Below, one piece after another: positions 46,842 through 62,853 of a stretch of DNA of 64,000 bases. Source of the DNA: a virus. Each line of letters starts with the position of its first letter. The first letter of the stretch is position 1. Under the pieces are notes generated by a model. It was not told where the DNA came from. It worked only from the letters and a program-made list of their open reading frames with translations, and did not search any database. The position numbers were made by a program, and so were the translations under genes. Location: positions 22,554 through 86,553 of IMG/VR virus record IMGVR_UViG_3300029267_001213, one strand, 5' to 3'.

Positions 46842-47113
46842 GCGAAAAAGAAAATATCAAGCTTCCAGTATCGGAAACACATGTGCGGGGCATTCAGGCG
46901 CTTATGGATTTGGCACGAGAAATTGCTGTAGCGATAGATAAAGAAATTTACGGTGCGGAAGAATCAGACGAGGAGAAAATTATTGCATTAACAAAATTAA
47001 TTTTTAATCATTTATCTCAGTGGGTATTAAAAAGATCGAAGCGCAAGCGTGTAGTCAGAGCATTGATTGCACGACTTCAGAATATGGACAATGCAGAGTA
47101 TATTGAAAAATGA
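46838..47113 (+). CDS. Small helical protein
   Basis: 91 residues, helical (VRGIQALMDLAREIAVAIDKEIYG; ALTKLIFNHLSQWVLKRSKRKRVVRALIARL). The start is TTG 46838 with gaaggag upstream. It overlaps QueE by 4 bp. Unknown. Confidence 0.5.
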   Translation: MSEKENIKLPVSETHVRGIQALMDLAREIAVAIDKEIYGAEESDEEKIIALTKLIFNHLSQWVLKRSKRKRVVRALIARLQNMDNAEYIEK

Positions 47114-49341: not shown

Positions 49342-51246
49342 ATGCCAAGATCAAAAAAAGGTACACAGAACAAGTCGGGATCCATACTTAAGCGAGTGGA
49401 CGATAATGTCGTAGTGAGGTCTAGAATTATCGGCGATGCCGGGCTGGAGGCATTGAGCAAGGGACTTACCGGCAGACAGGTTGAGTCGCCTTCCGGCAGG
49501 ACAGATACAGAAAACCGTATGAGTGGCATTTTCATGAAGGCGAGTGCTATAGAGCCAGCTATTGATCCGGCCAAACTTCTGCAGATGGGCGAAGTGTCCA
49601 GTACACTGAGAAGTTGTGCAAAAGCATATTCAGTAAATATCGGGGGACGAGGATTAAGAATAGAGCCTTTCGTAGATTTGAAGTCGGAAACCGCAAGAGA
49701 TCAGATAAAAGCGGCGATGCGATATAGGCGCATATTTGAAGCGATGGAAAACAGTGATTCTGATAAGGTACCAGACAGGGCAGAATTAATGAGCATAAAT
49801 GTTGAGGATGAGGAAGTTGATACAGAGATAGATGCTTTGAAATTTGAAGCGGACATGCAATATTTCAAGCTGGAGTCTTTCCTTGATGCTGCGGTATCGG
49901 GACAGTCAATAAGCACTTTGCTCAGAAAGACCGTTTTAGAAAAGCATATTATCGGGTGGGCTGCTTGGGAAGCGTTGCGAGATACCGAAGGCAGACTGGC
50001 TCGTTTTTCATGGTTGCCCGGCTGGACAATCCGTCCTTTGAAAAAAAGCACGCCGGTTCTGGTCAGCGAAATGGAACGAATGGGAAAAGTTTATACTACA
50101 GAGCGGGCTGTTTATCGAAATTTCAGAGGGTACGTTCAGGTAACTCCAGATGGCGAGACTATTTATTTCAAAGAATTTCGAGACCCAAGAGTAATGTCAA
50201 GACAGACAGGACAATACTTTAAGGATATGGCTGCATTCAAGGCGGCTGTAAAGAACCATGAATTAAAGGATGATGATATTCCGGCGAATGAGTTGAAGTT
50301 TTTCAATGTATTCTGGCCGAGAGGTGGGACAGGACTGCCTGAATGGTCAGGAGCTACGGCGGAGGTGCTTGGCATCAGAGAAGCGTCGGAAGTCAATCTC
50401 GCATATTTCAATAATAAAGCCATTCCACCCATGGCGATCATGGTTCATGGCGGGAGACTTTCGAAGGACTCAGTTGAAGACTTGAAGAATCAGATTGAAG
50501 CACAGATTAAGGGCAAGGGAAATTTTCACAAGATACTGATTCTGGAAGCTCAGACTCCAAAGGGCAAACAGGCCAGCGGTCTTATGGAACCGCCGACAAA
50601 GCAGCGGCCAATGATAGAAATGAAGTCTCTTATGGGCGACCAGCTCAAGGATGCTTTGTTTATGGATTACATTAAACTGAGCGAGAACATGATAGGCCGG
50701 TCGATGAGAATACCGCCATTAGCCCGTGGCGGTCATGAAGACTTTAATAAGGGAACGGCACTGGCGCAGCTTCGATTTGTTGAAGACCAAGTATTTGCAC
50801 CGGAGAGGTCTGAATGGGAAGAGTGGTTTAATAATGATGTACTGGAAGGGGCATTGGGAATTACTCTCTGGAAAGTACAAATTGCAGGTACAATTAGTTT
50901 CGATCCGGAGACTATGGCAAAAATTATCAAGGAGCTTTCCGAGTCCGGCAGTATTGTGACCAAGGAAGCGCGGCAGGAAGCTGCCAAGATCCTCGGACGC
51001 ACTCTGGCACCCATTGATGAGCGGTGGACGGATTATCCATTATCAATGGTATTGCAGGGATTGACACCGATTGACAACGAAGAGAGTGAAGATAAGGAAA
51101 CCGACGGTTCGGAAATCGAAAGACTGGTTGAAGAATACCGTGAGAGATGGGCCGCAGGAGAACAGAAAAGCACTATGCGGATTGGTGATACTCTTATTAT
51201 ATCTTTACCGCAGGAGGACTTTGATAAGCTCGTAGAACCGAGATAG
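49342..51246 (+). CDS. Portal protein (PBSX/Mu gp29-like)
   Basis: 634 residues. The pattern LLQMGEVSSTLRSCAKAYSVNIGGRGLRIEPF is typical of PBSX-type phage portal proteins, as are the middle segments FWPRGGTGLPEWSGATAEVLGIREA and FFNNKAIPPMAIMVHGG. It forms the dodecameric head-tail gate. Ribosome-binding site ggagggcacag. Located next to the large terminase. Confidence 0.82.
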   Translation: MPRSKKGTQNKSGSILKRVDDNVVVRSRIIGDAGLEALSKGLTGRQVESPSGRTDTENRMSGIFMKASAIEPAIDPAKLLQMGEVSSTLRSCAKAYSVNIGGRGLRIEPFVDLKSETARDQIKAAMRYRRIFEAMENSDSDKVPDRAELMSINVEDEEVDTEIDALKFEADMQYFKLESFLDAAVSGQSISTLLRKTVLEKHIIGWAAWEALRDTEGRLARFSWLPGWTIRPLKKSTPVLVSEMERMGKVYTTERAVYRNFRGYVQVTPDGETIYFKEFRDPRVMSRQTGQYFKDMAAFKAAVKNHELKDDDIPANELKFFNVFWPRGGTGLPEWSGATAEVLGIREASEVNLAYFNNKAIPPMAIMVHGGRLSKDSVEDLKNQIEAQIKGKGNFHKILILEAQTPKGKQASGLMEPPTKQRPMIEMKSLMGDQLKDALFMDYIKLSENMIGRSMRIPPLARGGHEDFNKGTALAQLRFVEDQVFAPERSEWEEWFNNDVLEGALGITLWKVQIAGTISFDPETMAKIIKELSESGSIVTKEARQEAAKILGRTLAPIDERWTDYPLSMVLQGLTPIDNEESEDKETDGSEIERLVEEYRERWAAGEQKSTMRIGDTLIISLPQEDFDKLVEPR

Positions 51247-51264: not shown

Positions 51265-51525
51265 ATGGATACAGGTGAATTAAAAAAGTCAGGCATTACT
51301 TACCAGTTTACAGCACAGAAACCGAAAACAAGACCGGAGAACATTGCTCAGAACATTTGTGATAAAATAAGCGAGATGGGGAGAATGAGTGGAGTCTCAC
51401 TGTCGGAGATTGGTCAAATATCTTTAAGCATTTCATCGTTTGCACAAAAAAGACCGAGACCTCCACAGCTCTGCATAAAGGAAAGGATTATAGATAATGC
51501 CGATAGGAAAGATAAAAGTTATTAA
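51265..51525 (+). CDS. Small protein with C-terminal QxxIKERI tag
   Basis: 86 residues with no cysteine pair; the body is short helices (NIAQNICDKISEMGRMSGVSLSEIGQISLSISSFA). It ends PPQLCIKERIID followed by a 12-residue charged tail. The tag is the same as in the 57-62 kb cassette, 5 kb away. Overlaps the next small gene by 29 bp; the aaaggaaagg inside the tag serves as its ribosome-binding site. Function unknown. Confidence 0.65.
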   Translation: MDTGELKKSGITYQFTAQKPKTRPENIAQNICDKISEMGRMSGVSLSEIGQISLSISSFAQKRPRPPQLCIKERIIDNADRKDKSY

Positions 51526-51661
51526 TAAGTCCGTGGTGGACTTTCAGGCGTTTATCAATGCACAGATTCAGGCGAAAGCCGGAAAGCGTCCGTCAGGCAC
51601 AGTGAGCAAGAACCAGAAAGAGAATGAAAAAGAAAGAACCTATCACAAGGGTACACGATAA
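51497..51661 (+). CDS. 54-residue protein, unknown
   Basis: Starts MPIGKIKVINKSVVDFQAFINAQIQ, basic tail KGTR. Ribosome-binding site aaaggaaagg lies within the tag codons of the previous gene. It overlaps both neighbours (29 and 38 bp), so it is part of a coupled trio. No family recognised. Confidence 0.5.
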   Translation: MPIGKIKVINKSVVDFQAFINAQIQAKAGKRPSGTVSKNQKENEKERTYHKGTR

Positions 51662-51836
51662 GGCCAGAGTAGCACTTCATTTATGCGGCCTGTCAGACGC
51701 TCCTAAGATTGAAAATTTGCTCAGAGAACTGGCTCGGTTACATCCTAATGCGACACCCATGGAGCTGGTAAATTTTGCTCGTAATGAATCAAATTTGAGC
51801 GAGATGATGGGACATGATCCGTGGGGTGATGAATGA
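51624..51836 (+). CDS. Small helical protein
   Basis: 70 residues, ends SNLSEMMGHDPWGDE. Two helices around ARVALHLCGLSDAPKIENLLRELARLHPNATPMELVNF. Overlaps the preceding frame by 38 bp. Unknown. Confidence 0.5.
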   Translation: MKKKEPITRVHDKARVALHLCGLSDAPKIENLLRELARLHPNATPMELVNFARNESNLSEMMGHDPWGDE

Positions 51837-52148
51837 CGTGGAGGGATTCAGCCGGGGATGTTCCTTTTCCGGATAAAATTAAGCAGTGAAATTGCATGAA
51901 ATGAACAGAACTTAAGTGCCGGTAATGCAAAGTGAAACCCGTTACAAAACGGGCGTGAAAAAAGCGATGTGGTTTAATGTAGGCAAGCGGGAAAGTTATT
52001 ATGGGAAAATGGGCTGCGGCTCTCTGGTGGACGGCGAAATATTCAGGGCGCAAGCAATTGAGATTGCTGGAAAAATAAAAAATAAATAAACAAAATAATT
52101 GACGCTATACAATAGGATAATGTATGCATTGATCAAAAGGAGGGTGCA
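51837..52148 (+). other. Intergenic gap of about 310 bp with promoter
   Basis: Contains a hairpin cccgtt / aacggg (about 51943-51958, 4-base loop, no T-run), a doubtful 25-residue frame from ATG 52001 (starts MGKWAAALWW) and a promoter candidate at 52099. Otherwise nothing recognisable. Confidence 0.5.
52099..52128 (+). promoter_or_regulatory. Promoter candidate for the 52-55 kb small genes
   Basis: ttgacg at 52099-52104 with, 17-18 bp downstream, the -10-like gtatgca preceded by aatg. AT-rich spacer. It stands 20 bp before the ribosome-binding site (aaggaggg) of the gene at 52149. Confidence 0.4.
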
Positions 52149-52343
52149 ATGACATTTGAAGAGAAGGTGGACGCATTGGGACATGAGCTGACTCATGGTG
52201 TGGTGGACTTCAGTGATCAGGAATATGACTTCATAAACAACATGGTCGAGCTGGTCGAGTGCTGTCATGAGCCATCAGAAAAACAGGTAAAGTGGATTGA
52301 AGACCTGTATGAAAAACGGATCTATCGTGGAGAGAGCGCATGA
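52149..52343 (+). CDS. Small acidic helical protein
   Basis: 64 residues, acidic; helices FEEKVDALGHELTHGVVDFS and FINNMVELVECCHEPSEKQVKWIEDLYEKRI. The latter resembles a helix-hairpin unit found at the C-terminus of several phage proteins. No function assigned. Strong ribosome-binding site aaaggagggtgc. Confidence 0.5.
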   Translation: MTFEEKVDALGHELTHGVVDFSDQEYDFINNMVELVECCHEPSEKQVKWIEDLYEKRIYRGESA

Positions 52344-52720
52344 AGTACGAGCCGCTGGAATATGTCATACATACTGAGCAAGGACCGATGATGGTCAAGG
52401 GTTACAAGGTCGGCAAGTATACTGCAATTCGAAATACAGGTCCGAGTACTCAAGGTGAATTCTGGACTAAGGACCATTTACCGACAGGCCGGAAAATTCC
52501 TATCGGGATAAATGATGTAAGGGAAACAGCCCGGTTGATATGTCTGGCATTTAAAAAGGAAACAACTGGTCGAGGAGTGTCATTGAATGATCCGGAAAGA
52601 CGAATGCTGACAAAGCCGGCAGTCAGACGAATCAAGGCATATGGATTATTGATTGACCAGCAAAAGGATGCCGGTCTGGAGCTTGAATCATACGAAAGTT
52701 ATCTGGAGGGTATAAAATGA
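52340..52720 (+). CDS. Hypothetical protein, paralogue of 58701
   Basis: 126 residues. Shares GxxxxxDHLPTGRK and a following LLxFQ/TARLICLA-like helix, plus an E/D-R-R-L-x-K-x-x-x-x helix and a C-terminal SYESYL-type end, with the larger protein at 58701. The N-terminal strands VIHTEQGPMMVKGYKVGKYTAIRN look like a small beta sheet. Unknown function. Confidence 0.5.
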   Translation: MKYEPLEYVIHTEQGPMMVKGYKVGKYTAIRNTGPSTQGEFWTKDHLPTGRKIPIGINDVRETARLICLAFKKETTGRGVSLNDPERRMLTKPAVRRIKAYGLLIDQQKDAGLELESYESYLEGIK

Positions 52721-53028
52721 GTCAGATAATGATGTTCGATCCGGAGAGCAAATTGAAGAAGGACTTCAAAAAATTCCATCGGAAAAATCCGCATGTGTAC
52801 GAAAAGCTAAAGCAGCTGGCACTGGACCTGAAGCGTAAAGGTCGGGACAGATATACTATCAATGGATTATTCGAAGTGCTTCGGTGGCATTATGCAATGA
52901 GGACAAATAGCGATGATGAGTTCAAGCTGAATAATAATCACCGGGCTTATTATGCCAGAGAGCTTATGAGAAATGTTCCTGAGCTTTATGACTTTTTCGA
53001 GACGAGATTTGCAAAAGGAGATTCATGA
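52717..53028 (+). CDS. Conserved small phage protein
   Basis: 103 residues. KDFKKFHRKNPHVYEKLKQLALDLKRKGRDRYTINGLFEVLRWHYAM ... NNHRAYYARELMRNVPELYDFFETR follows a pattern I recognise from many phage genomes (FxxFHxxNPxVYxxLxxLA ... LRW ... YARxLMxxxPxLxxFFxxR). Its function is not known to me. Overlaps its neighbours by 4 bp. Confidence 0.65.
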   Translation: MSQIMMFDPESKLKKDFKKFHRKNPHVYEKLKQLALDLKRKGRDRYTINGLFEVLRWHYAMRTNSDDEFKLNNNHRAYYARELMRNVPELYDFFETRFAKGDS

Positions 53029-53255
53029 TACGGAATCAGAATGATGCCTTGAAAGTTCTTAGAGCTGGTGGCGAGGTTGATGTGGTTTCAGGTTTTAATA
53101 TGGGACGATGTTACATAAAGCACAGGAACGGAAGGTTCGAGTATCTGCATGGCAATACATGGAGGGCCCTGAAACGAAGGTATAGATTTGCAGCTCGAAG
53201 AACAGGACCGTTCGAGATGCGGTATAGGTTGAAAGAGACCAGTCTAAAAAAATGA
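53025..53255 (+). CDS. Small basic beta protein
   Basis: 76 residues, very basic, strand-rich (GEVDVVSGFNMGRCYIKHRNGRFEYLHG). Likely nucleic-acid contact by charge; no family recognised. Confidence 0.5.
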   Translation: MIRNQNDALKVLRAGGEVDVVSGFNMGRCYIKHRNGRFEYLHGNTWRALKRRYRFAARRTGPFEMRYRLKETSLKK

Positions 53256-53557
53256 GATGTTGCAAAATACCTTCACAGGATCCGGCTATCCTGCATATGA
53301 CTTATTTTAAGGGATCACGGGAAATGGTTTTGAAGGTTGCTGCGCAGAAAAAGTTTCGAGGATTCAAGCCGGGCAGCTTTATAGATTTTCTATCAACAGG
53401 AGAGACAAGAAACATGTGGGTTGTGGATGAGATAGAAGAGGTGAGTGATAGTGTTTTATATTTGTTTTGCATTCGGCCTTTTCAGCTGACAGTAAAAAAA
53501 AAAATAACAAAGGAGAAGATTGATGGAAATAAAAGAATGGCAGATAAAAGTGCATGA
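53252..53557 (+). CDS. Hypothetical protein
   Basis: 101 residues. FKGSREMVLKVAAQKKFRGFKPGSFIDFL then VVDEIEEVSDSVLYLFCI suggest alpha/beta, with a basic C-terminus. The end overlaps the MazG-like gene by 35 bp, and the aaaggagaag there is that gene's ribosome-binding site. Confidence 0.45.
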   Translation: MRCCKIPSQDPAILHMTYFKGSREMVLKVAAQKKFRGFKPGSFIDFLSTGETRNMWVVDEIEEVSDSVLYLFCIRPFQLTVKKKITKEKIDGNKRMADKSA

Positions 53558-53816
53558 ATTGGCGAAAGAAAAAGGATGGTGGAATGAAAAACGTAATATA
53601 CCGGAACTGCTTTGTCTGATGCATTCAGAAATATCAGAGGCACTTGAGGCGTATCGAAAAAATGACAATGATAATTTTATGGAGGAGCTTGCCGATTTGG
53701 CGATTAGATTATTTGATGCATGTGAGGCTTGGCAGATAGATTTAGATGAAGAAATTGCCAAAAAATATGCAATTAACAAAGCCCGTGAATATCGTCACGG
53801 CGGGAAACGGTGCTAA
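53523..53816 (+). CDS. MazG-like nucleotide pyrophosphohydrolase
   Basis: 97 residues from ATG 53523. All-alpha NTP-PPase pattern: IPELLCLMHSEISEALEAYR gives the ExxE pair, and FMEELADLAIRLFDACEAWQIDLDEEI gives the ELAD metal-binding motif; ends KAREYRHGGKRC as in many phage MazG-like proteins. It hydrolyses (d)NTPs or alarmones such as ppGpp; the substrate cannot be told from sequence. Confidence 0.8.
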   Translation: MEIKEWQIKVHELAKEKGWWNEKRNIPELLCLMHSEISEALEAYRKNDNDNFMEELADLAIRLFDACEAWQIDLDEEIAKKYAINKAREYRHGGKRC

Positions 53817-53851
53817 TGATCCACTACCTGACGCGGAAGGAGGGGGCGAAG

Positions 53852-54040
53852 ATGAATGAAGAGAAACTGAAAGAAGAATTCACGATTGCGGAAATCGCAG
53901 AAAGTATAAATCTCATGCGTAAGCGGTATGAACAAGGGCAGGGCAGGTACGCTGATGCAATGTGCCGACTATCATTGCCGATGAGTGAATATCTATTATC
54001 AGAAATCGTTGCTCTGCTAACACAGGAGGAGCAATCATGA
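53852..54040 (+). CDS. Small helical protein
   Basis: 62 residues from ATG 53852, which has a perfect aaggaggg ribosome-binding site; the open frame starts earlier at 53810 without one. Acidic helix FTIAEIAESINLMRKRYEQ and LSLPMSEYLLSEIVALL. No family recognised. Confidence 0.5.
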   Translation: MNEEKLKEEFTIAEIAESINLMRKRYEQGQGRYADAMCRLSLPMSEYLLSEIVALLTQEEQS

Positions 54041-54228
54041 CTGACAGACCCAATGGGAAAGATGATCCACTGGCAAAGGAGAGTAAACGAGGCCGGGAAT
54101 TGGCAGAACAGTTAGTCGACCACATGAAAAAGATGGGTGGAGCCGAACGGTGCTGGATACCAGTGGCAGGGTATACCGTAGAGGTTGCAGTATTACCGGC
54201 AGACACGCAGGATGTGAGCCATGACTGA
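54037..54228 (+). CDS. Small hypothetical protein
   Basis: 63 residues: charged start TDRPNGKDDPLAKESKRGRELAEQLVDHMKK, strand end WIPVAGYTVEVAVLPADTQ. Ribosome-binding site caggaggagcaatc. A 13-codon frame overlapping its end (ATG 54222) could relay ribosomes to 54259. Confidence 0.45.
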   Translation: MTDRPNGKDDPLAKESKRGRELAEQLVDHMKKMGGAERCWIPVAGYTVEVAVLPADTQDVSHD

Positions 54229-54258
54229 CAAACCAGCATCAAACAAAGGAGAAAAGCA

Positions 54259-54552
54259 ATGAAGTACATTGAAGTGACAGAGTGTAATGTTACCAAGAAC
54301 GAAGGCGATGAAACAGCAAGTGGAAACATGATAACGTTTAAGACCAAATTGTACGACGGTGAAAACGAAAAAGATTACATAGGCGAGATTGCTTACAATG
54401 AAGACTTAGACGTGGACTATCGTTTGATTGAAGTTCTGGCACATGGTGCATCAGCATTAGCCCGGGCCGACTTATTGGAAGACGGTCATGATATTCTTGC
54501 TCAGGTAATTGAGAATGAAATGTACAGGACTATGAGACGGGCGTTGCTTTAG
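54259..54552 (+). CDS. Acidic hypothetical protein
   Basis: 97 residues. Strands YIEVTECNVTKNEGDE and MITFKTKLYDGENEKDYIGEIAYNE, then helices VLAHGASALARADLLEDGHDILAQVIENEMYRTM. No family recognised. Ribosome-binding site aaaggagaaaagc. Confidence 0.5.
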   Translation: MKYIEVTECNVTKNEGDETASGNMITFKTKLYDGENEKDYIGEIAYNEDLDVDYRLIEVLAHGASALARADLLEDGHDILAQVIENEMYRTMRRALL

Positions 54553-54688
54553 CCGTGCATTAAGACAGTCATGCAATTGCATAAACTAATCCGGAACAGC
54601 TATTCATTCCGACAGGCTGAAGTCTCACGAGTAGGTCGGCAGATATTCTGGTTGTATGTAAAACACATTAAAGAAATATGGAGGCGAT

Positions 54689-54922
54689 GTGCGAGTTACA
54701 AAATACAAAAAAGGCGAAAAGACAGGAATGCCGGTATCACTGTTCGGCGGTAAGTCAGGCTGGATAAAAGCCGAGATGCCAATGGACGGTATACTGATTC
54801 AGCTAAATGCTTTGGAAAAGTCATCTGGCGGGTGCTTTATATCGGATGCACAGTTGGCCGAGCTTGGATATTATACTCAGGACGAAAACAGAAAGGAGAA
54901 TGAATGCAAAAAGGAATCTTAG
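54689..54922 (+). CDS. Small hypothetical protein (GTG start)
   Basis: 77 residues. GTG 54689 has a strong ggaggcgat ribosome-binding site; the segment 54553-54688 before it holds no supported gene, only a 12-bp palindrome atgcaattgcat. Body KSGWIKAEMPMDGILIQLNALE, basic N-terminus. Overlaps the lipoprotein start by 19 bp. Confidence 0.5.
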   Translation: MRVTKYKKGEKTGMPVSLFGGKSGWIKAEMPMDGILIQLNALEKSSGGCFISDAQLAELGYYTQDENRKENECKKES

Positions 54923-55782
54923 GAATAGTGTTTTTCCTGTCCGGATGTTTTTCCATTCCGGGATATGAGAGTGTAAGTCAGGACGAGGACTGTACCTGTC
55001 CGGACGAGGAGTGTCCTGATACAGCATCAGGCAATGACGATGAGATAAGCAATAGAGATGCCGGGGTGTATGATTCTGGAAACGATGAGTCACAGGACAT
55101 TCCTGATAAACCAGATTTGGAATTTGTGACGGTGCCGGGCAATGCCTTTTACATCGGCAATATAAATGAACAGGGGCCTTGGTATCAGGTCGCAGTAAAA
55201 ACATTTTGGATAATGAAGCATGAGGTTACTGTAGCCGAGTACGGAAAGTGTGTACTGAGCGGGGCATGTACCCGGCCGGTTGATGAGTGTGATTGCATGT
55301 GGTCCGACATAGGCAACGATTATCCGGTGAGCTGTGTAAGTTGGAAACAGGCACAGGAATTTTGCAGCTGGGCGTGTGACTTCTGCAGATTGCCAAGTGA
55401 ATCAGAATGGGAATTTGCGGCGCGAAATGCAGGACAGGGCATACCGTATCCATGGGGGATAGATGCGCCAGATTGTGAGCGTGTAGCGAAAAGCGGATGC
55501 GGTCGCGGAATTGCGACTGTCTGCAGTAAGCCAGACGGCAATACCGAGCAAGGTGCGTGCGATATGCTTGGTAATTTATCCGAGTGGGTTGAGGATGACT
55601 GGCATGATAATTATTCTGGCATACCTGATAACGGCACGGCATGGATTGATATGGACAATTATTACAAGGTGATCCGTGGTGCAAGTTTTATGGACAACGA
55701 GAATGCATTGAGAACGACTTATCGAGAAAAACGAATTCAATATCATAGGGCACCATGGACAGGCTTTAGATGTGCGTATTAG
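54904..55782 (+). CDS. Lipoprotein with formylglycine-generating-enzyme/C-type-lectin fold
   Basis: 292 residues. Signal peptide with lipobox LSGC (Cys15), then a Cys/Asp-rich linker (EDCTCPDEECPD) to about 65, then an FGE-sulfatase domain: FVTVPGNAFYIGN, IMKHEVTVAEYGKC, PVSCVSWKQAQEFCSWA, CRLPSESEWEFAARNAGQG, PYPWG, GNLSEWVEDDWHDN, VIRGASFMDNENALRTTYREKR, GFRCAY. It may not have the copper/active-site cysteines of true FGE. Surface lipoprotein; perhaps superinfection exclusion or cargo from a bacterial genome. Ribosome-binding site aaaggagaatg. Confidence 0.78.
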   Translation: MQKGILGIVFFLSGCFSIPGYESVSQDEDCTCPDEECPDTASGNDDEISNRDAGVYDSGNDESQDIPDKPDLEFVTVPGNAFYIGNINEQGPWYQVAVKTFWIMKHEVTVAEYGKCVLSGACTRPVDECDCMWSDIGNDYPVSCVSWKQAQEFCSWACDFCRLPSESEWEFAARNAGQGIPYPWGIDAPDCERVAKSGCGRGIATVCSKPDGNTEQGACDMLGNLSEWVEDDWHDNYSGIPDNGTAWIDMDNYYKVIRGASFMDNENALRTTYREKRIQYHRAPWTGFRCAY

Positions 55783-55794
55783 ATTACAAAAGTC

Positions 55795-55822
55795 TTGCAA
55801 AGGAAATAAATAATCCTATATA
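55795..55822 (+). promoter_or_regulatory. Promoter candidate before 55867
   Basis: ttgcaa at 55795-55800 and tatata at 55817-55822, 16-bp spacer, in the 84-bp gap after the lipoprotein gene. A strong aaggaggg ribosome-binding site follows. Confidence 0.45.
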
Positions 55823-55866
55823 TTGCAATCAATGAAACCATAACAACGAAGGAGGGTAATAACCAC

Positions 55867-56466
55867 ATGATGAGTGAAGTAGTCAGAGACATAGTTACAC
55901 AGCGAGATGAGCGTGAGGACTGGATTCATGAGCGCAAGCTTCGAGCTGCCGTAAAAAGAGAACTGAACATTATCAGGAGAGCTGAATATCTCAGGCGCAA
56001 GAAGGAGGCGTCTGAATATCTCAGGAAAAATTTTATTCAGATGATGTACTGGCATATGGGATGCAGGAATCATCCGGAAGGACAGGAGCCAAAGACACTG
56101 GAAGAACGTTTCGGCGAATACACTGTGGCGATGGGTTATCGCAAAAGCGGGGTCCGTTCTAATGACGGAAAAAGAATGCTGGTCAGCGTATGTTTCGCAA
56201 TCAGGACGAAAGGCGATTTCTTTTCCCGGCCACAGGCAAGAATGTATATTGCTGACAGATTCAGGAACGAGGATAGAACATGGAATTTTAATGTTTGGGT
56301 TCCGGTGCAAATTATTCAGAATGCTGCTTTCGAAGACGAGGAAAAATATATTAAGGCTTATTTTCTGAACACGGTAGTCAGACAGCCGATAGTATGGACC
56401 AAGCTATCACGCCAGTTCAGAAAATTTATCAGGGATATATACTTAACAGAAGGAAACGTTACTTGA
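55867..56466 (+). CDS. Hypothetical protein
   Basis: 199 residues. The helical, very charged N-terminus (QRDEREDWIHERKLRAAVKRELNIIRRAEYLRRKKEASEYL) could be a coiled coil; the rest is alpha/beta with RMLVSVCFAIRTKGDFFSRP and WNFNVWVPVQIIQ. No family recognised. Confidence 0.5.
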   Translation: MMSEVVRDIVTQRDEREDWIHERKLRAAVKRELNIIRRAEYLRRKKEASEYLRKNFIQMMYWHMGCRNHPEGQEPKTLEERFGEYTVAMGYRKSGVRSNDGKRMLVSVCFAIRTKGDFFSRPQARMYIADRFRNEDRTWNFNVWVPVQIIQNAAFEDEEKYIKAYFLNTVVRQPIVWTKLSRQFRKFIRDIYLTEGNVT

Positions 56467-56729
56467 TGCCATTAACGGAAATGGTATGGTGGATGGGCAT
56501 TCTGATTTATCTGGTTACAATTATTTCTGTAGCTGTTGTTATTCGGTCCATTAAGATTCGAGCCGAGCTGGAAGCGGCGGAACGAAATATCAGTAAGATG
56601 ACTGAGTTTGTGGAGCAACAGACGCAGTTCGTAAAATCTATGACTGAGCATATGAATGTTCGGATTAAATATATCCAGAGCAGACTGGATGCCGAAGGCA
56701 AAGACATAGACATTCCGGATATACACTGA
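56466..56729 (+). CDS. Membrane-anchored coiled-coil protein
   Basis: 87 residues from ATG 56466 (one-base overlap with the previous stop). One N-terminal membrane span (WWMGILIYLVTIISVAVVIR) and a long helix (AELEAAERNISKMTEFVEQQTQFVKSM). Topology resembles small i-spanin or septum-type phage proteins; unassigned. Confidence 0.5.
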   Translation: MPLTEMVWWMGILIYLVTIISVAVVIRSIKIRAELEAAERNISKMTEFVEQQTQFVKSMTEHMNVRIKYIQSRLDAEGKDIDIPDIH

Positions 56730-56732
56730 CAG

Positions 56733-57230
56733 ATGGAATGGATTAATGCAGCTTATGAACGGGGCGAAATAAGCGTGGATATTTATTCCGGGCAATGGCT
56801 TGATGAGTATCAGATTGTAACTACAGAACCACTTTGTACTAGAAAAATAGAATCATATCCTTCAAGAGTAAAGGTGCCTTATTACTTTGTAGATTTGGAA
56901 GATATAATTCGAGCGCATAAGAGAAGGAATGTTCCAGTACTGGTTTACAGTTTTAAGACGGATGCAGTACAGATTACGGATGGATTTAGAAAACATGTCT
57001 TTTCTATTGCTCGGGATGCGATGTCGCAAGCCATGAGAGATTATTTGGCTTCAGGTGGTTTGGCTTCTATGGATAGATATATTCTGAATAATATGGGCAT
57101 TAAATATGAAGTGGATGGTTCAGCAACAATGATCCGATTGCCAGCCAGACAATTAATTGTGAGAGAAAAAATAAAGGAGGAATCTGTATGGGAGAAGGGC
57201 AAGCGATTAATAATCCAGAAAACAAAATAA
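56733..57230 (+). CDS. Protein with internal QxxVREKI tag near its end
   Basis: 165 residues, no cysteine pair in zinc-ribbon form. It carries RLPARQLIVREKIKEESVW, so the tag lies 22 residues before the end. The codons behind the tag (ataaaggagga) supply the ribosome-binding site for the next ATG at 57188. The body (WINAAYERGEISVDIYSGQW; KVPYYFVDLEDIIRAHKRRN) is alpha/beta and unrecognised. Confidence 0.6.
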   Translation: MEWINAAYERGEISVDIYSGQWLDEYQIVTTEPLCTRKIESYPSRVKVPYYFVDLEDIIRAHKRRNVPVLVYSFKTDAVQITDGFRKHVFSIARDAMSQAMRDYLASGGLASMDRYILNNMGIKYEVDGSATMIRLPARQLIVREKIKEESVWEKGKRLIIQKTK

Positions 57231-57619
57231 AATTGGTGCGGGCTATTATCAAGCGACAGCTTTCGTATATGCAGGACACCTTGCGGCTGGATTTCGACAT
57301 ACTAGGCATGGTGGACGGAAGACATGTTATCAGCACAAAAGACCTTGATTGGAACGGCTCTTGGGAATTGCTGAAGATGTGGAATATGGCTGTCGGTCGT
57401 GCATCGGCGGTAGAAATGTCAGGCGTAAAAATACAAAAGGACGAAGAGGGCAAGGTTGGATGCGAGTTCGAGTTGCGGTGCAGCGAAAACGTATTCGGCA
57501 GCGTTGGAAATTTTGACAGACAATTATTCAGCGCGAGAAATGAGGACGCTAGAATACTGACCAGCTGGGTGACAGACGAAACGCACGAGAAAGGTTTATG
57601 GGATTTCATTATATCTTAG
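57188..57619 (+). CDS. Hypothetical protein
   Basis: 143 residues, helical start (KIKLVRAIIKRQLSYMQDTLRLDFDILGMV) and beta middle (GCEFELRCSENVFGSVGNF). Lacks the tag; overlaps the tag protein upstream by 43 bp and the following broken gene by 22 bp. No family recognised. Confidence 0.5.
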   Translation: MGEGQAINNPENKIKLVRAIIKRQLSYMQDTLRLDFDILGMVDGRHVISTKDLDWNGSWELLKMWNMAVGRASAVEMSGVKIQKDEEGKVGCEFELRCSENVFGSVGNFDRQLFSARNEDARILTSWVTDETHEKGLWDFIIS

Positions 57620-57909
57620 ACGGCAAAAAAGCTGTCGAATGTAACGATATGCGCAAGTGGGCAGAATGGATGTAGGAAGTCGACAGGCGCGTGGCGTATG
57701 ATGAGCTTAATGATGTGCAAGTCAGCACTGTTTTCCTCGGCGTGTCTATTGCTTTATTCGAGACCATGGTATTTGGCAATGGAAGTTATGAGCTGGATAA
57801 TTACTCACGAAGATATGCAACATGGAACGAAGCTGAAGTCGGTCATAAGGAAGTGGTGGACATGGTTAAGGAGACCATGTTAGAACAGGCATTGATAAAA
57901 GGATTATGA
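57598..57909 (+). pseudogene. Conserved small phage protein interrupted by in-frame TAG
   Basis: Reading from ATG 57598 gives MGFHYILDGKKAVECNDMRKW AEWM, then TAG at 57673-57675, then EVDRRVAYDELNDVQVSTVFLG, LFETMVFG and YATWNEAEVGHKEVV. The two halves together match a phage protein family I know from the order LDGK-PVEC...W..W...RRVA...VSTVFLG...LFETMVFG...TWEEAE-GH. So the amber codon replaces one residue. Translation could restart at GTG 57691 (72 residues). The end, EQALIKGL, looks like a frameshifted tag. A dead copy, or readthrough. Confidence 0.6.
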
Positions 57910-57981
57910 TGCGAGGTGGAGAAGTGGTATCTCGGCAGGGTCATATCCTGCAGAACCCGGGTTCGAGTCCCGGCCTCGCTA
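57910..57981 (+). tRNA. tRNA with anticodon CAU (Met or Ile2 type)
   Basis: Cloverleaf: acceptor t-gcgagg with cctcgc-t, D-arm gag-aagtggtat-ctc, anticodon stem gcagg/cctgc with loop gtCATat, 5-base variable loop, T-arm ccggg-ttcgagt-cccgg, discriminator A at 57981, no encoded CCA. Position 1-72 is a T:T mismatch. The anticodon stem lacks the three G-C pairs of initiators; so elongator Met or (with lysidine) Ile is more likely. Directly followed by the tmRNA. Confidence 0.85.
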
Positions 57982-57995
57982 CTGAGAAAGTGAAT

Positions 57996-58300
57996 GGGCC
58001 TAAAAATGGATTCGACGTATGCAGCGAAACATGAGAGGCGTGTCGTGGGTGCTTGTTACCACGTAAACACAACGAGCAATGAGAACTGCGAACCAGCAGA
58101 AAGCTCTGGCTGCATAGACAGTCAGTGTCTTTTCGAGAAGTCCGGTCTGTACTTTCGAAAAAGGCATCATATCACAGGCCACAGCATTCTCCTTGAAAAC
58201 GTCTGGCTGACGGCCCTGTTTATCGGGACAAAGATAGACTACACACGTAGAATTTTATGCGGAAGGTATGCGGACGCCGGTTCGATTCCGGCTAGGTCCA
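57996..58300 (+). ncRNA. ssrA: tmRNA (ssrA), phage-encoded
   Basis: 305 nt. The 5' end gggcctaaaaatggattcgac and 3' end ggttcgattccggctaggtcca are classical tmRNA ends. The acceptor stem pairs 7 bp with the G3.U70 alanine determinant; the T-arm is intact; CCA is not encoded. A tag frame ends ALAA then TAG (58115-58117); the resume codon is GCG 58088 (tag ANQQKALAA) or GCA 58076. It rescues stalled ribosomes and marks products for proteolysis. It lies beside a tRNA, 13 bp away. Confidence 0.9.
58088..58117 (+). other. tmRNA tag reading frame
   Basis: GCG AAC CAG CAG AAA GCT CTG GCT GCA TAG encodes ANQQKALAA. The ending ALAA is the ClpXP/ClpAP-type degron. An upstream resume codon GCA at 58076 would add AMRT. 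A conserved A at position -4 exists for both, so the start cannot be fixed. Confidence 0.65.
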
Positions 58301-58363
58301 CTGAGTTGGCGATTGTTTAAGGCTTACGGCGAGTAAAATTGCTTTAAGCCACTAAAGAATCAG

Positions 58364-58624
58364 ATGGTATATATTACGTCAAAGCGTCCTGTTGTATCAA
58401 ATCCATTACAGCGATTTTATTGTCAGCATTGTGAATATGTACAATACAGACCGGGGCACTGCCTTAACTGCGGTAATCCTGTCAGGCCGATTAAAAATTT
58501 GATTCATAAGGACCAGCTACGGGACAAGCTCTGGCAGTCTTGGGATCAAGAAAATAATTTGGTCTGGATTGTGGCAATTATAATTTGCGGAATAATATTA
58601 GCGGTTGGAACATTCCTGTTTTGA
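58364..58624 (+). CDS. Zinc-ribbon protein with C-terminal membrane span
   Basis: 86 residues. Zinc ribbon (CQHCEYVQYRPGHCLNCGN, about 20-38), a basic linker, then one hydrophobic span at the end (WIVAIIICGIILAVGTFLF), i.e. a tail-anchored ribbon in the inner membrane. It lies between the tmRNA and the cassette promoter and lacks the QxxIKERI tag. Confidence 0.55.
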   Translation: MVYITSKRPVVSNPLQRFYCQHCEYVQYRPGHCLNCGNPVRPIKNLIHKDQLRDKLWQSWDQENNLVWIVAIIICGIILAVGTFLF

Positions 58625-58626
58625 TA

Positions 58627-58655
58627 TTGACCAAGCAAACTAAATCCTTTATAAA
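58627..58655 (+). promoter_or_regulatory. Promoter of the tagged mini-protein cassette
   Basis: ttgacc at 58627-58632 and tataaa at 58650-58655 with exactly 17 bp between, in the 76-bp gap ahead of 58701. Close to the sigma70 consensus. No other clear promoter is seen until 62.4 kb, so it may drive the whole cassette. Confidence 0.55.
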
Positions 58656-58700
58656 ACATTATTATATTGTAACCAGAACCAGAACAAGCAAGGAGAAGAC

Positions 58701-59183
58701 ATGCCGAAAGAATTAATCATTGACGAAACAGACATTAAAGACCTGAAGATGAGCGAGTACGAGATCGCTGTCGGATGGGCTGGCCGTAAGGCAGACGAGC
58801 AGCTGGAGATGCGAAAGGTCACTGGTTTTATGGTGTCGGAACATCTTGCAGTGAGAGACATGGAGAATGGCAATGGGTGGGCCATTGATCATCTTCCTAC
58901 CGGAAGACGATTGAATCATTGGCCATTGCTTACTTTCCAGACCGTGGTGTTGTATGCAAAAGCCATTCATAAATATTTGCATGATCCGGGAACTAAAAAC
59001 GCGGAGATTGTTTACACCGAGGATGAGCAACTTAGGATGCAGCTTTACATGAAATACCTGATAGTGAATCCTGAAAGTGAGACGACGTGGGACGAATTCA
59101 AGGAACGGCCTTTGCCTGAAGGTGTGACCAGAATATCTTTACATGAATTAAATGAAACAGAAACCAAAGTTACCAGCGATTAG
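58701..59183 (+). CDS. First gene of the cassette, hypothetical, paralogue of 52340
   Basis: 160 residues, no tag. Shares IDHLPTGRRLNHWPLLTFQT and the EDEQLRMQLYMKYL helix with the protein at 52340. Ribosome-binding site caaggagaagac. Its end overlaps the first tagged ribbon gene by 32 bp. Unknown function. Confidence 0.5.
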   Translation: MPKELIIDETDIKDLKMSEYEIAVGWAGRKADEQLEMRKVTGFMVSEHLAVRDMENGNGWAIDHLPTGRRLNHWPLLTFQTVVLYAKAIHKYLHDPGTKNAEIVYTEDEQLRMQLYMKYLIVNPESETTWDEFKERPLPEGVTRISLHELNETETKVTSD

Positions 59184-59439
59184 TTTTATGGAAGACCTTG
59201 GGATAATAAAAGTACTGTTGGCAAGATTGTCACAGCATAGGACTACCAGAATGGTTGTGACTTGCCATTATTGCGGAAATACTTTTGCGATGTATTTCCC
59301 AGCTCGTGAATATAAAAAAGACGTGAGACATTATTGGTGCCCGAGTTGTCTTTCTCATCCGGTATGCAGAGAAGGGTCAAGGCTATATCGGGTTGCGAAG
59401 GCAGAACAAGTTTGCATGAGCGAGCGAGTTGTTGACTGA
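59152..59439 (+). CDS. Tagged zinc ribbon 1
   Basis: 95 residues; zinc pairs C38/C41 (CHYC) and C63/C66 (CPSC). Ends EQVCMSERVVD: tag with Ser in place of Lys. Here the ribosome-binding site of the next gene (gaggag) lies after the stop, so the tag is not needed as a ribosome-binding site. Ribbon bodies of this sort bind nucleic acid or proteins; function unknown. Confidence 0.65.
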   Translation: MKQKPKLPAISFMEDLGIIKVLLARLSQHRTTRMVVTCHYCGNTFAMYFPAREYKKDVRHYWCPSCLSHPVCREGSRLYRVAKAEQVCMSERVVD

Positions 59440-59450
59440 GGAGTGAGCCG

Positions 59451-59759
59451 GTGTTTAGACCGTGGCAAGAAAAGTGGTTAGTGCCTATTTACAAGTTCAA
59501 CAGGCCGATTCAAATGAGCAACGGTCATGGAAACAGATACTGTTGCATAAGATGCGGTTGTGACTTGTTCTGGATGATGGAAATAAACGCAGAGGTCAAT
59601 ACTGGTTATCTTTCAAAGTCATATGTGACCGTTACAACGAAGTGTTATCAATGCGGTCGGCAGATGGGTTTTTTGTTATATAACTATCATGATAAAAATT
59701 CGCAGTTGTTGCCAATTTTTCAAGAACAGAAAATGATACGTGAGCGAATCAATGGATGA
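59451..59759 (+). CDS. Tagged zinc ribbon 2
   Basis: 102 residues from GTG 59451. Zinc pairs C32/C35 and C65/C68. Ends EQKMIRERING. The ATG of the next gene lies inside its last codons (atggatga). No recognisable SD in the tag codons (atacgtgagcga), yet the peptide is kept. Confidence 0.65.
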   Translation: MFRPWQEKWLVPIYKFNRPIQMSNGHGNRYCCIRCGCDLFWMMEINAEVNTGYLSKSYVTVTTKCYQCGRQMGFLLYNYHDKNSQLLPIFQEQKMIRERING

Positions 59760-60039
59760 GTTTAGTGTTGGTGACATAGTGGGTGTTCTGAACGATGCAG
59801 CAGAATTTGTTGCGGATTCCTTGCTCGACATGGCCGAGGTGCTTCCGATAATTTTCAGATCATCATTAGGATCTATTGAGGAGGGAATTAAAGATACTTT
59901 GTTTCGTGAAGACAGTGAGCGAATTGAAGTATTAATTACACTGTTCGGCGGTGAAGAAAAATTTATCAAGTTGGTTTGTGCTATGAAGCTTGGACATTTA
60001 CTTCAGCCGGTAATCAAGGAAAGGATCATTGATGAGTGA
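59752..60039 (+). CDS. Tagged helical protein (no zinc site)
   Basis: 95 residues from ATG 59752 (the frame opens at GTG 59740). All-helical, acidic: VGDIVGVLNDAAEFVADSLLDMAEVLPIIF and RIEVLITLFGGEEKFIKLVCAMKLGHLL. Ends QPVIKERIIDE. Having the same tag on a cysteine-pair-free helical body shows the tag is separate from the ribbon fold. Confidence 0.65.
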   Translation: MDEFSVGDIVGVLNDAAEFVADSLLDMAEVLPIIFRSSLGSIEEGIKDTLFREDSERIEVLITLFGGEEKFIKLVCAMKLGHLLQPVIKERIIDE

Positions 60040-60325
60040 CTGGCGGGATAGGTGGAAGGACGTGAAGGCCAGACAGAGAATTAAGGTAACCGAGCGCGGT
60101 AGTTACAAAGACGAAAGTGCTTTTCGATGCTCATGCGGTCATGATATTTTCTTCGTGCATATTGATTGGAAAAAGGCCAAAGAATTTTTTTCACGGAATG
60201 CATTGATAGTGAGTTGTATGCGGTGCCATATGAGAATCAGAATATCGCTGGATATGACTGGTCCTGTTTTGATACCTTTTGCAGCCAGTCAGCAAATAAT
60301 TAAGGAGAGAGTCATTGGTGATTAA
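60032..60325 (+). CDS. Tagged zinc ribbon 3
   Basis: 97 residues from ATG 60032 (the frame opens at TTG 60029). Cys pairs C33/C35 (CSC) and C62/C65 (CMRC). Ends QQIIKERVIGD. The tag codons attaaggagaga hold a strong ribosome-binding site for GTG 60315. Confidence 0.65.
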   Translation: MSDWRDRWKDVKARQRIKVTERGSYKDESAFRCSCGHDIFFVHIDWKKAKEFFSRNALIVSCMRCHMRIRISLDMTGPVLIPFAASQQIIKERVIGD

Positions 60326-60578
60326 GTCTAATCTGATTTATGATTTGAACAAAAGCACCAGACGTTTTCGTTGTAAGCAATGCGGCAATGATTTATTCAA
60401 TGAGCATATGCCTTATCAGGGCGAGCATCGAGTTGAGACATTTTATGTGTGTACTGTTTGCCAAGAAAAATATTCAGTAGAGACATTGGCTCGGCTGAAC
60501 GTACATCATAAGCGCATTGCACAAAAGGAACAGCCTGTAGTGAGAGAAAAAATAAGGAGCAAGGCGCGACATGGCTGA
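60315..60578 (+). CDS. Tagged zinc ribbon 4
   Basis: 87 residues from GTG 60315. C20/C23 (CKQC) and C46/C49 (CTVC). Tag EQPVVREKI followed by RSKARHG. The extra residues after the tag hold the next gene's ribosome-binding site (ataaggagcaa). Confidence 0.65.
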   Translation: MVIKSNLIYDLNKSTRRFRCKQCGNDLFNEHMPYQGEHRVETFYVCTVCQEKYSVETLARLNVHHKRIAQKEQPVVREKIRSKARHG

Positions 60579-60789
60579 AAAAGCAAGAAAGATATTCGAC
60601 ATGAGTAGGGTGACGCAATCGACTAGATTTTTAATGAGTGCTGGCATAAGTATGAATGAAGCGATTGATGCAGTGGAAAAATTTCGAGCAACAATTACTG
60701 AAAGAACGGGTGTCTCTGAAAGGTTTATGGAATTGCGGCGAGAGCTGTTTATGGAGCAGTTGGTTATCAAGGAGCGCATCATTGAGTAA
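60571..60789 (+). CDS. Tagged helical protein (no zinc site)
   Basis: 72 residues, fully helical, no Cys: TRFLMSAGISMNEAIDAVEKFRATITERTGVSERFMELRRELFMEQLVIKERIIE. The tag comes straight off the last helix, so it may be a helical extension in the folded protein. Confidence 0.65.
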   Translation: MAEKARKIFDMSRVTQSTRFLMSAGISMNEAIDAVEKFRATITERTGVSERFMELRRELFMEQLVIKERIIE

Positions 60790-61018
60790 ATACATAAATG
60801 ATTATTCATTGGTTCGAGTCGATTTCAGTCATAGTGCTGCGTTTACTGATACCGCAAGCACTGAAAGTTATACAAGGTCGATGGTATGGTGTCCGGACTG
60901 CGGATCGAGAATGCTTAGAAGTCATAGTACAGGCGCATTATATTGTTTCGGTTGCTTCAATATTTTTTTTATGCAGATTTTAATTAAGGAGCGTATCGTT
61001 GACGATACCACGGCGTAG
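60782..61018 (+). CDS. Tagged zinc ribbon 5 (TTG start)
   Basis: 78 residues. The start is TTG 60782 within the previous stop region (attgagtaa); the frame is open upstream but only this start gives a ribosome-binding site (caaggagcg, 8 bp). C37/C40 (CPDC) and C55/C58 (CFGC). Ends MQILIKERIVDDTTA. Confidence 0.6.
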   Translation: MSKYINDYSLVRVDFSHSAAFTDTASTESYTRSMVWCPDCGSRMLRSHSTGALYCFGCFNIFFMQILIKERIVDDTTA

Positions 61019-61214
61019 AAAACTTTTAGCAAGACGTGGGAAACTGACGTGTTATCAATGCGGCAGTACAGACGTTCATTCTATCAATACAGGAGAACTG
61101 GTATGTGATTTTTGCGGTACTCATTATACTAATGAATTCCCGGATGGTGTTCCGGGAACGACTAAGCCCCCTGTGCGATTTCAAGCCATGGTTAAGGAAC
61201 GGGTGATTGAATGA
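60999..61214 (+). CDS. Tagged zinc ribbon 6 (TTG start)
   Basis: 71 residues from TTG 60999, 10 bp after aaggagcg. C18/C21 (CYQC) and C36/C39 (CDFC), a minimal ribbon with a very basic N-terminus (PRRRKLLARRGK). Ends FQAMVKERVIE. Confidence 0.65.
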   Translation: MTIPRRRKLLARRGKLTCYQCGSTDVHSINTGELVCDFCGTHYTNEFPDGVPGTTKPPVRFQAMVKERVIE

Positions 61215-61510
61215 ATTGGGAAGAGGCTCATATTTTAGACACGCAATTTAGCAATGTTGTTTGCAGTGCTTGCAAGAAAAATAGACAGATAGTTCGTATG
61301 CATTCTAAAGTTGAATGTAATTTTAAGAATGGAGGGTATGTGCTAGTTATGTGCTGTCCATTATGCGGTCGGACTGTAATTATGGACAGAGAAGAAAATT
61401 TGCCAGACGCAAAACGGCTTAGAAATCGGGTTGGCGGAATACTAATAAATGATACAGCATATGTTGGAACACTACCTCGGCAGTTTTGTATAAAGGAAAG
61501 AATTCTGTAA
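61211..61510 (+). CDS. Tagged zinc ribbon 7
   Basis: 99 residues. C18/C21 (CSAC) and C49/C52 (CPLC). Ends RQFCIKERIL, the shortest tail after the tag (3 residues past the Glu). Overlaps the preceding stop (ATGA) and abuts the next ATG. Confidence 0.65.
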   Translation: MNWEEAHILDTQFSNVVCSACKKNRQIVRMHSKVECNFKNGGYVLVMCCPLCGRTVIMDREENLPDAKRLRNRVGGILINDTAYVGTLPRQFCIKERIL

Positions 61511-61794
61511 TGGCCAAACAAAAGAGAGGCATGCGATTTGACAGGCCAAACAGAGAGGCTATGGCGGCGACGGCAAACTGGATTACTGAGGAAGATAGAT
61601 GGATTTTTCTTTCGCTGGAGTGGGATGAAATAAAGATGCCTTGTCCATTCTGTTTTAATAAGATGTTGCATGATATGATGCAGTATCGAACGGGCTGTAG
61701 ACATTGTGGTTGTTGGTGGAATGATAGCATGTTGAGGACGTTGAATTATCGCGGATTGGAACAGGCGATTATGCGGGAGAAGGTTCATGGATGA
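61510..61794 (+). CDS. Tagged zinc ribbon 8
   Basis: 94 residues from ATG 61510, sharing one base with the previous TAA; an open frame from 61486 is less likely. C45/C48 (CPFC) and C63/C66 (CRHC), with an extra N-terminal helical region. Ends EQAIMREKVHG. Confidence 0.65.
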   Translation: MAKQKRGMRFDRPNREAMAATANWITEEDRWIFLSLEWDEIKMPCPFCFNKMLHDMMQYRTGCRHCGCWWNDSMLRTLNYRGLEQAIMREKVHG

Positions 61795-62035
61795 ATTAAT
61801 TGAGCATGAGATAGATCAATTTGTACTGGATAGCCGCTGTGAATGCGGCGGATGCATAATGAGGTATGGCAATGAAGAAGTGATGTGTAACAAATGCAAA
61901 TCAATATATAGATTATTATTTCACAAAAAGACGGTTAAAGATAAATTTAATCAGCTGGTATTCGAATCTGTAAAGATCATGACTGGCAAAAAGTGTCTAC
62001 CTGAACAGCTGGTAATTAAGGAACGAACATGCTGA
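61787..62035 (+). CDS. Tagged Cys-rich protein 9
   Basis: 82 residues. C18, C20, C23 and C34/C37 (CECGGC ... CNKC), a compact ribbon near the N-terminus, then a basic helix. Ends EQLVIKERTC, with Thr instead of Ile/Val after the Arg. Confidence 0.65.
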   Translation: MDELIEHEIDQFVLDSRCECGGCIMRYGNEEVMCNKCKSIYRLLFHKKTVKDKFNQLVFESVKIMTGKKCLPEQLVIKERTC

Positions 62036-62232
62036 TAAAAAACATAAGCGGGAATATTATTAAGGTGAAAAACGTAATGGTTCCACCGGACCGGCAACTG
62101 TTCATTACTCCGTCAGAATACAACAAGCTACCAGCTGCAGTAAAAGTACTGTTTATGGTAACCATGACAGATTGCCCGTTTGAAGAACTGGAACAGGCAA
62201 CGATTAGTGAACGGATTAAAGATGATGATTAA
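62029..62232 (+). CDS. Tagged small protein without zinc site
   Basis: 67 residues, one Cys. Short beta start (LIKNISGNIIKVKNVMVPPDRQLFITPSEYNKLP). Ends EQATISERIKDDD. The tag codons attagtgaacgg contain no Shine-Dalgarno sequence. The basic-beta body resembles small phage proteins that read LIKNISGxxIxVxxxxVPPxxxxxIxxxEYxxL, of unknown role. Confidence 0.65.
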   Translation: MLIKNISGNIIKVKNVMVPPDRQLFITPSEYNKLPAAVKVLFMVTMTDCPFEELEQATISERIKDDD

Positions 62233-62234
62233 AA

Positions 62235-62462
62235 ATGCAGAATGATAAAATTAAATTGAGCACTAGATGTTGGCTTTGCGGAGGCACAGTACCTTTCTGT
62301 CCGGAGAAAGGATGGACGCATTGCAAGGATTGTGGGCGGGAGTATATTATATCGGACAAGACCGGGGTTGCTCCGGTTTATCAGGAGACAATGAGAGAAC
62401 GAATCAAGAGAAAGGAGAAGAAGGATGACGACGATAACACTGGCAAGAAAATTTCGTTTTGA
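62235..62462 (+). CDS. Tagged zinc ribbon 10
   Basis: 75 residues. C12/C15 (CWLC), C22 and C30/C33 (CKDC). Tag YQETMRERI lies 20 residues before the end; the charged extension (KRKEKKDDDD) overlaps the queD start by 38 bp and holds its ribosome-binding site (aaaggagaagaagg). Confidence 0.65.
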   Translation: MQNDKIKLSTRCWLCGGTVPFCPEKGWTHCKDCGREYIISDKTGVAPVYQETMRERIKRKEKKDDDDNTGKKISF

Positions 62463-62853
62463 AGCTGCTCACAGACTGAATAAGCATAAAGGACAGTGCA
62501 AGCATCTGCATGGTCATACATACAAAGGGCATGTGGAGATTGAAGGTCCGGTTGGCGAGGACGGTATGGTTCTCGACTTTCAAAACATGAAAGCTTTGTT
62601 GAATATGTCGATTGGATTGCTGGATCATTCTCTTATGCTGCATGAGAATGATGAGCTGGTAAACGTCATGGCAGACCATGGTCAGCATGTGGTTACTATG
62701 CCTTACGATCCGACGGTTGAAAATCTTTCTAAGCGAATTGGCTTGAGCATTCAGAAATATCTGGATGAAGATGAAACACTGGACGCATGGGTCAAGCGGG
62801 TCGTATTATATGAGACTCCTGAATGCTGGGCCATATGGAGGCCGTTGGAATGA
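62425..62853 (+). CDS. queD: QueD, 6-carboxytetrahydropterin synthase
   Basis: 142 residues. PTPS/QueD family: FRFEAAHRL (zinc His), GQCKHLHGHTYKGHVEIEG (catalytic Cys and two zinc His), GMVLDFQNMKALL, LDHSLML and PTVENLSKRI, then ETPECWAIW. It converts dihydroneopterin triphosphate to 6-carboxytetrahydropterin, the substrate of QueE (47110). The start is deep in the preceding tagged gene. Confidence 0.85.
   Translation: MTTITLARKFRFEAAHRLNKHKGQCKHLHGHTYKGHVEIEGPVGEDGMVLDFQNMKALLNMSIGLLDHSLMLHENDELVNVMADHGQHVVTMPYDPTVENLSKRIGLSIQKYLDEDETLDAWVKRVVLYETPECWAIWRPLE

Follow-up and report, generated by a model that had tools for sequence, protein, structure and literature searches.

A C-Terminal Octapeptide on Small Accessory Proteins of Different Folds in a Phage Genome Is a Candidate Docking Motif

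A window of 64,000 nucleotides (nt) from the IMG/VR virus record IMGVR_UViG_3300029267_001213 (positions 22,554–86,553 of a contig of 86,553 bases) was analyzed, and the octapeptide consensus Q-x-x-[IVM]-[KRS]-E-[RK]-[IVT] was found near the C-terminus of 15 open reading frames (ORFs) for small proteins, in frame in every case. This tag is real, is maintained at the level of the protein, is modular over different protein bodies, and is confined to an accessory island of the phage genome. It is probably a short linear docking or targeting motif that is carried by 15 or 16 small accessory proteins and recognized by one common partner. The tagged ORFs are labeled T1–T15 in their order along the DNA, and T16 is a degenerate extra member. 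Coordinates are those of the window, except for those preceded by L001, which lie in the rest of the contig (Table 1).

Results and Discussion

Occurrence of the tag

The first-pass annotation of this DNA had listed 15 octapeptides with the Gln always five residues before the Glu, and had stated that in 13 of the proteins the C-terminus is at most 13 residues past the Glu. All of the octapeptides were located in frame at 1–18 residues from the stop codon, and both statements about spacing were found to be correct. Thirteen of the tagged genes (T3–T15) are consecutive, overlapping or nearly abutting one another between positions 59152 and 62462, and T1 and T2 stand apart. When the motif was written as a degenerate DNA pattern, it matched the coding strand of the whole contig 16 times, and these matches are the 15 tags and one internal sequence, QKMIKEKI, of the large ATPase at 29646–30812. 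The opposite strand of the whole contig contained no match, nor did the reversed control pattern find any. Shuffling of the C-terminal 35 residues of 134 plus-strand ORFs gave a mean of 0.017 motif matches and a maximum of 1.

A scan for near misses added the 16th tag, in which Lys replaces the Glu, at the end of the T16 protein (...FQLTVKKKITKEKIDGNKRMADKSA). This tag is found 13–16 nt upstream of the next start, as with the other tags. Its DNA has a run of 11 A across the Glu region and flanks like those of the T2 and T7 tags (GTR, an A-rich run, ATAA, and GGAG). The amphipathic pattern of the tag tends to that of a strand, at a level that was not significant (0.12 of permutations).

Table 1. 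Positions of the tagged genes and of other features of the contig
Feature	Position	Strand	Tag (position)	Remarks
T1	51265..51525	+	QLCIKERI (51466-51489)	86 aa; no cysteine pairs; directly 3' of portal gene
T16	53252..53557	+	QLTVKKKI (53483-53506)	101 aa; degenerate tag (Glu to Lys); MazG-like gene next
T2	56733..57230	+	QLIVREKI (57150-57173)	165 aa; no cysteine pairs
T3	59152..59439	+	QVCMSERV (59407-59430)	zinc ribbon; opens run of 13 tagged genes
T4	59451..59759	+	QKMIRERI (59727-59750)	zinc ribbon; GTG start
T5	59752..60039	+	QPVIKERI (60004-60027)	acidic protein, helical in AlphaFold2 model
T6	60032..60325	+	QQIIKERV (60290-60313)	zinc ribbon
T7	60318..60578	+	QPVVREKI (60531-60554)	zinc ribbon; GTG start
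T8	60571..60789	+	QLVIKERI (60757-60780)	72 aa; no cysteine pairs
T9	60782..61018	+	QILIKERI (60974-60997)	zinc ribbon; TTG start
T10	60999..61214	+	QAMVKERV (61182-61205)	zinc ribbon; TTG start
T11	61211..61510	+	QFCIKERI (61481-61504)	zinc ribbon
T12	61510..61794	+	QAIMREKV (61762-61785)	zinc ribbon
T13	61787..62035	+	QLVIKERT (62006-62029)	zinc ribbon
T14	62029..62232	+	QATISERI (62194-62217)	67 aa; no cysteine pairs
T15	62235..62462	+	QETMRERI (62382-62405)	zinc ribbon; stop falls within QueD gene
Portal protein	49342..51246	+		left edge of accessory island
Untagged zinc-ribbon gene	62823..63272	+		right edge of island; homologue directly 3' of portal in L091
QueE-like radical-SAM gene	47110-47778			7-deazaguanine set
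QueD	62425-62853			7-deazaguanine set
FolE	L001 168-749			7-deazaguanine set
DpdA-like transferase	L001 3111-3983			7-deazaguanine set
QueC	L001 3926-4654			7-deazaguanine set

Selection at the level of the protein

In each of the eight codon columns of the tag, the pairwise nucleotide identity was the same as would be expected if synonymous codons were chosen at random according to genome usage (p = 0.08–0.98). Across the tags, Arg is spelled in six ways, and Glu and Gln each occur in both of their codons. Because the codons vary as random synonymous choices do, the tag is selected as a protein sequence. The only codon bias is at Lys-5, which is AAG in eight of eight cases, compared with 448 of 877 in the genes sampled. 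This bias is attributable to a Shine-Dalgarno constraint, which explains nothing else in the motif. In most of the eight Lys-type tags the Lys-Glu codons read AAGGA or AAGGAG and provide the following gene with its best ribosome site, and this is what would be expected if the tag were merely a translated Shine-Dalgarno region. However, the Gln, the hydrophobic residue at position 4, Arg/Lys-7, and Ile/Val-8 fall outside of AAGGA(G), and the synonymous codons are randomized. In six of the tags that have Arg or Ser at position 5 (T2, T3, T4, T7, T14, and T15), the ribosome site of the next gene is 3' of the tag or missing, and yet the Gln, the hydrophobic residue, the Glu, the Arg/Lys, and the Ile/Val are all kept. 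The frame-independent nucleotide conservation by which a Shine-Dalgarno origin would be recognized is absent from the tags, and the gene junctions gave no predicted conserved base pairs or RNA structure and no Rfam match. An artifact of DNA or RNA is thus excluded as the full explanation, and we give it almost no credence. The first-pass annotation had named a codon-level analysis of this kind as a way to refute the tag, and the tag withstands it. The tag is a protein motif, and some of its copies have been overlaid, in the manner of a compact genome, with the Shine-Dalgarno sequence of the following gene.

Diversity of the tagged proteins

Ten of the 15 tagged bodies have the two cysteine pairs typical of zinc ribbons, and the other five are without cysteine pairs. 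When the bodies were compared with the tags removed, only three of 105 pairs had z > 5 (T9/T10, T6/T7, and T10/T15, with z of 5–7), all of them zinc ribbons, and no similarity was detected for the five bodies that lack cysteine pairs. The ten zinc ribbons are therefore not fully unrelated, and some of them are distantly alike. The flanks upstream of the Gln could not be aligned among the members. The AlphaFold2 model of T5 (single sequence, predicted local distance difference test score of 74) has four helices, the last of which runs into the tag with low confidence; a Foldseek search with this model returned no matches, and the model of T2 was unusable. We conclude that the tag sits on at least two different folds. 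The claim of the first-pass annotation that the tag is a module, rather than a sign of homology between whole proteins, is borne out by its presence on zinc ribbons that differ in spacing, on bodies that lack cysteine pairs, and on the modeled four-helix protein. Its description of the bodies as unrelated is true of the five without cysteine pairs and too strong for the three weakly similar pairs.

An alternative is a plain paralogous family, in which an ancestral zinc ribbon was duplicated in tandem, the bodies diverged, and the tag is the best-kept part of the fold. The tandem array, the ten zinc ribbons, and the weak likeness of several pairs are all in keeping with such a history. We nonetheless regard it as unlikely, since five bodies have neither cysteine pairs nor detectable similarity, T5 is modeled as a four-helix protein, and in the zinc ribbons the Gln lies 6 to about 41 residues beyond the second cysteine pair, a variation that would hardly be allowed for an element of a fold. 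Common descent of the tag itself, moreover, is compatible with docking.

A few of the bodies have faint matches to known families. T10 resembles an Rrn7-type ribbon (E = 8.6e-5) and T12 has a weak likeness to the restriction-alleviation protein Lar (E = 0.005), each below the Pfam cut-off. A scan against a library of defense genes gave no match of weight.

Position of the tag and other possible functions

From the end of the tag to the start codon of the following gene there are −1 to 20 nt in all 15 cases (mean 7.6, standard deviation 7.2), with the gene after T1 taken as a 54-residue ORF that is itself uncertain. In T1, T2, and T15 the stop codon is 11–18 codons past the tag, inside the next gene, and the tag is still near the next start. 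The simplest reading is that the genes formerly ended at the tag and that some have lost their stop, so that translation continues out of frame into the following gene and adds extra residues. This means that the tag has no need of a free carboxylate immediately behind it.

The constant closeness to the next start, which extends to T1, T2, and T15 and is shared by the degenerate T16, would also fit a nascent-chain or translation-coupling element that makes the ribosome pause, or guides it, and so ensures translation of the gene that follows in the array. Between tag and stop there are anywhere from 1 to 18 residues, and the spacing from tag to start ranges over 21 nt, which is poor for an arrest peptide of fixed register. 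C-terminal tags would in any case be expected near the next start from compact gene packing alone, and the genes that follow T2, T15, and T16 are unrelated. A role of this type is given only a small chance. Cleavage by a head-maturation or other protease after a hydrophobic-x-Glu sequence, as the first-pass annotation had suggested from the T4 prohead protease rule, is a poorer prospect and seems very unlikely. All 15 tags do have a hydrophobic residue at P3 and Glu at P1, and a head protease gene is present. That protease, however, is of the XkdF type (Pfam Peptidase_S78_2) and not T4 gp21, the conservation reaches both sides of the Glu (from Gln at P6 to Arg/Lys-Ile/Val at P1'–P2'), a cut after the Glu would take off only 3–20 residues, and T16 lacks the Glu. 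Nothing was found to support the turnover signal that had also been proposed.

The tag as a docking motif

The data point to a function of the peptide itself. The explanation that needs the fewest assumptions is a motif for docking to one partner, and we infer that the tag works by binding such a partner. This is supported by the random level of synonymous variation, the retention of the motif in six tags without an internal ribosome site, the low similarity of the bodies, the unaligned upstream flanks, the four-helix model of T5, the lack of RNA structure at the junctions, and the location of the island between the portal gene and the genes for head and capsid assembly, in a phage that also encodes a 7-deazaguanine set. 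Each of the diverse accessory proteins would be made with the C-terminal octapeptide, which would bring all of them to the common partner. It is speculative, and on balance rather doubtful, that this partner is the assembling head or prohead (scaffold, portal, or capsid), a proposal made by analogy. If it were, the small proteins would be packaged and could perhaps counter host defenses against a modified genome. Tentative, too, is the proposal that 15–16 small proteins of different folds, encoded mostly in one tandem array, are joined through the octapeptide to a single hub and form an interchangeable toolkit without a described counterpart.

Several points weigh against docking. None of the relatives scanned carries the tag. 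The compact overlap of the genes places the tags near starts and so leaves a translation-linked role open. The capsid-targeting signals known from T4 and P1 are N-terminal, and the only proposed C-terminal one is that of the SPN3US protease. The location among head genes says little in favor of packaging, because the island also holds a MazG-like gene, a tRNA, a transfer-messenger RNA (tmRNA), and QueD. The docking or sorting signal of the first-pass annotation stands as the best reading of the tag.

The function of most small accessory genes of phages is not known, and the tag provides a direct handle by linking fifteen of them; identification of the partner would assign all fifteen proteins to the same process. 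Should the partner be the prohead, the tag would be a C-terminal packaging code that could be used to predict or to load cargo. If it is a hub of the host or the phage, the tag would represent a type of recruitment motif that is new for phages.

Comparison with known systems

The closest analogy to the docking motif is the capsid-targeting sequence of T4, which the tag may resemble in its working but from which it differs in being C-terminal. The T4 internal proteins (IPI, IPII, IPIII, and Alt) are likewise small accessory proteins of unrelated sequence with only a short peptide in common, and they are encoded in an accessory hotspot. T4 DNA is modified, as the genome described here probably is, and the position among head genes is a further parallel. 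In T4 the signal is located at the N-terminus and is removed by gp21, whereas the tag is found 1–18 residues from the C-terminus and is a candidate targeting signal only. T4 has three IPs (at least ten have been reported across related phages), compared with the 15–16 tagged proteins here. Diverse bodies with only a short sequence in common are found in both sets, and for the tag this sequence is a probable targeting signal. We do not place the tagged proteins in the T4 internal-protein family, since their tag is not N-terminal.

The sliding-clamp binding motif of bacteria (QLxLF or QxxLxL) is also short, begins with Gln, has a hydrophobic residue at position 4, and is often found near C-termini, and in all of these respects it is like the tag. 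It was rejected as an identity for the tag, which has Glu at position 6 in 15 of 15 cases instead of a hydrophobic residue and so lacks the residue that contacts the clamp. The Dar proteins of P1, which are accessory and act against restriction, are targeted to the head (DarB through a short peptide), and in this they are like the docking proposed here; the DarB signal is N-terminal, in contrast to the tag. No common consensus was found for the Dar proteins by the authors of that work (PMC9024508). A C-terminal head-targeting signal has been proposed for the SPN3US protease (PMC7411985), but this is a 64-residue propeptide of a single protein rather than an octapeptide common to many.

Distribution in other genomes

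No detectable match to the T2 protein, the T6 protein, or the consensus tail was obtained in INPHARED. Portal relatives in IMG/VR have at most 38% identity, and none of the close IMG/VR relatives found with the portal, helicase, T2, or T12 proteins has a tagged array. One of these, L018, encodes an identical helicase and is a fragment that does not include the tagged region. A scan of 80 portal-related loci for the motif and for shared tails of any kind revealed no tag sets, and only scaffold-type W-P-x-D-L motifs and chance pairs. In these relatives (L164 among them), W-P-x-D-[LM]-N motifs are found on scaffold-like proteins and probably represent a scaffold-capsid contact. Each of 49 whole related records contained at most two motif matches, much as with the reversed control, and two that were followed up were not tags. 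The match QPLIKERIIEIK in L014 is within an open frame of 35 residues that shows no sign of being a gene, and QPELKERIFE in L091 is a single case rather than a tag set. Pattern scans of IMG/VR and GTDB gave isolated chance matches or none, and no clusters; each pattern fits few of the 15 tags, and a relative with a drifted motif could escape these scans. A profile of the tail gave only chance matches in the PDB (a C2H2 finger and an antibody). Searches of an open-access literature library found no description of unrelated small phage proteins with a common C-terminal tag.

The accessory island and neighboring genes

The contig contains the phage genes for a portal protein, a Mu F-like protein, the XkdF-type protease, a capsid protein, and tail proteins. 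In the relative L091 the portal gene is followed by a homologue of the untagged zinc-ribbon gene, and in the window the same two genes are 11.6 kb apart. Since a second relative also has these genes far apart, the interval may be a recurrent place of insertion. In addition to the tagged genes, the MazG-like gene, and QueD, the island holds a sulfatase-modifying-factor-like (FGE) domain protein with a lipoprotein-like N-terminus (54904–55782) and, at 57910–58303, a tRNA-Met that adjoins a phage tmRNA gene with the tag peptide ANQQKALAA (Rfam, 136 bits). FolE, QueD, the QueE-like protein, QueC, and the DpdA-like transferase make up a 7-deazaguanine set, and the genome is therefore probably modified.

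Two proteins that flank the head protease (L001 7944–8531 and 9041–11002) have a C-terminal tail of their own in common, xDGxYDLSAxVKxxKxAGK. The adjacent and similar proteins at L001 5065–5655 and 5659–6213 are ParB-like in appearance, and each ends near a CPHCG motif. At 29646–32451, a MoxR-like ATPase is followed by a VWA-like-looking protein, and the two form a chaperone-like pair.

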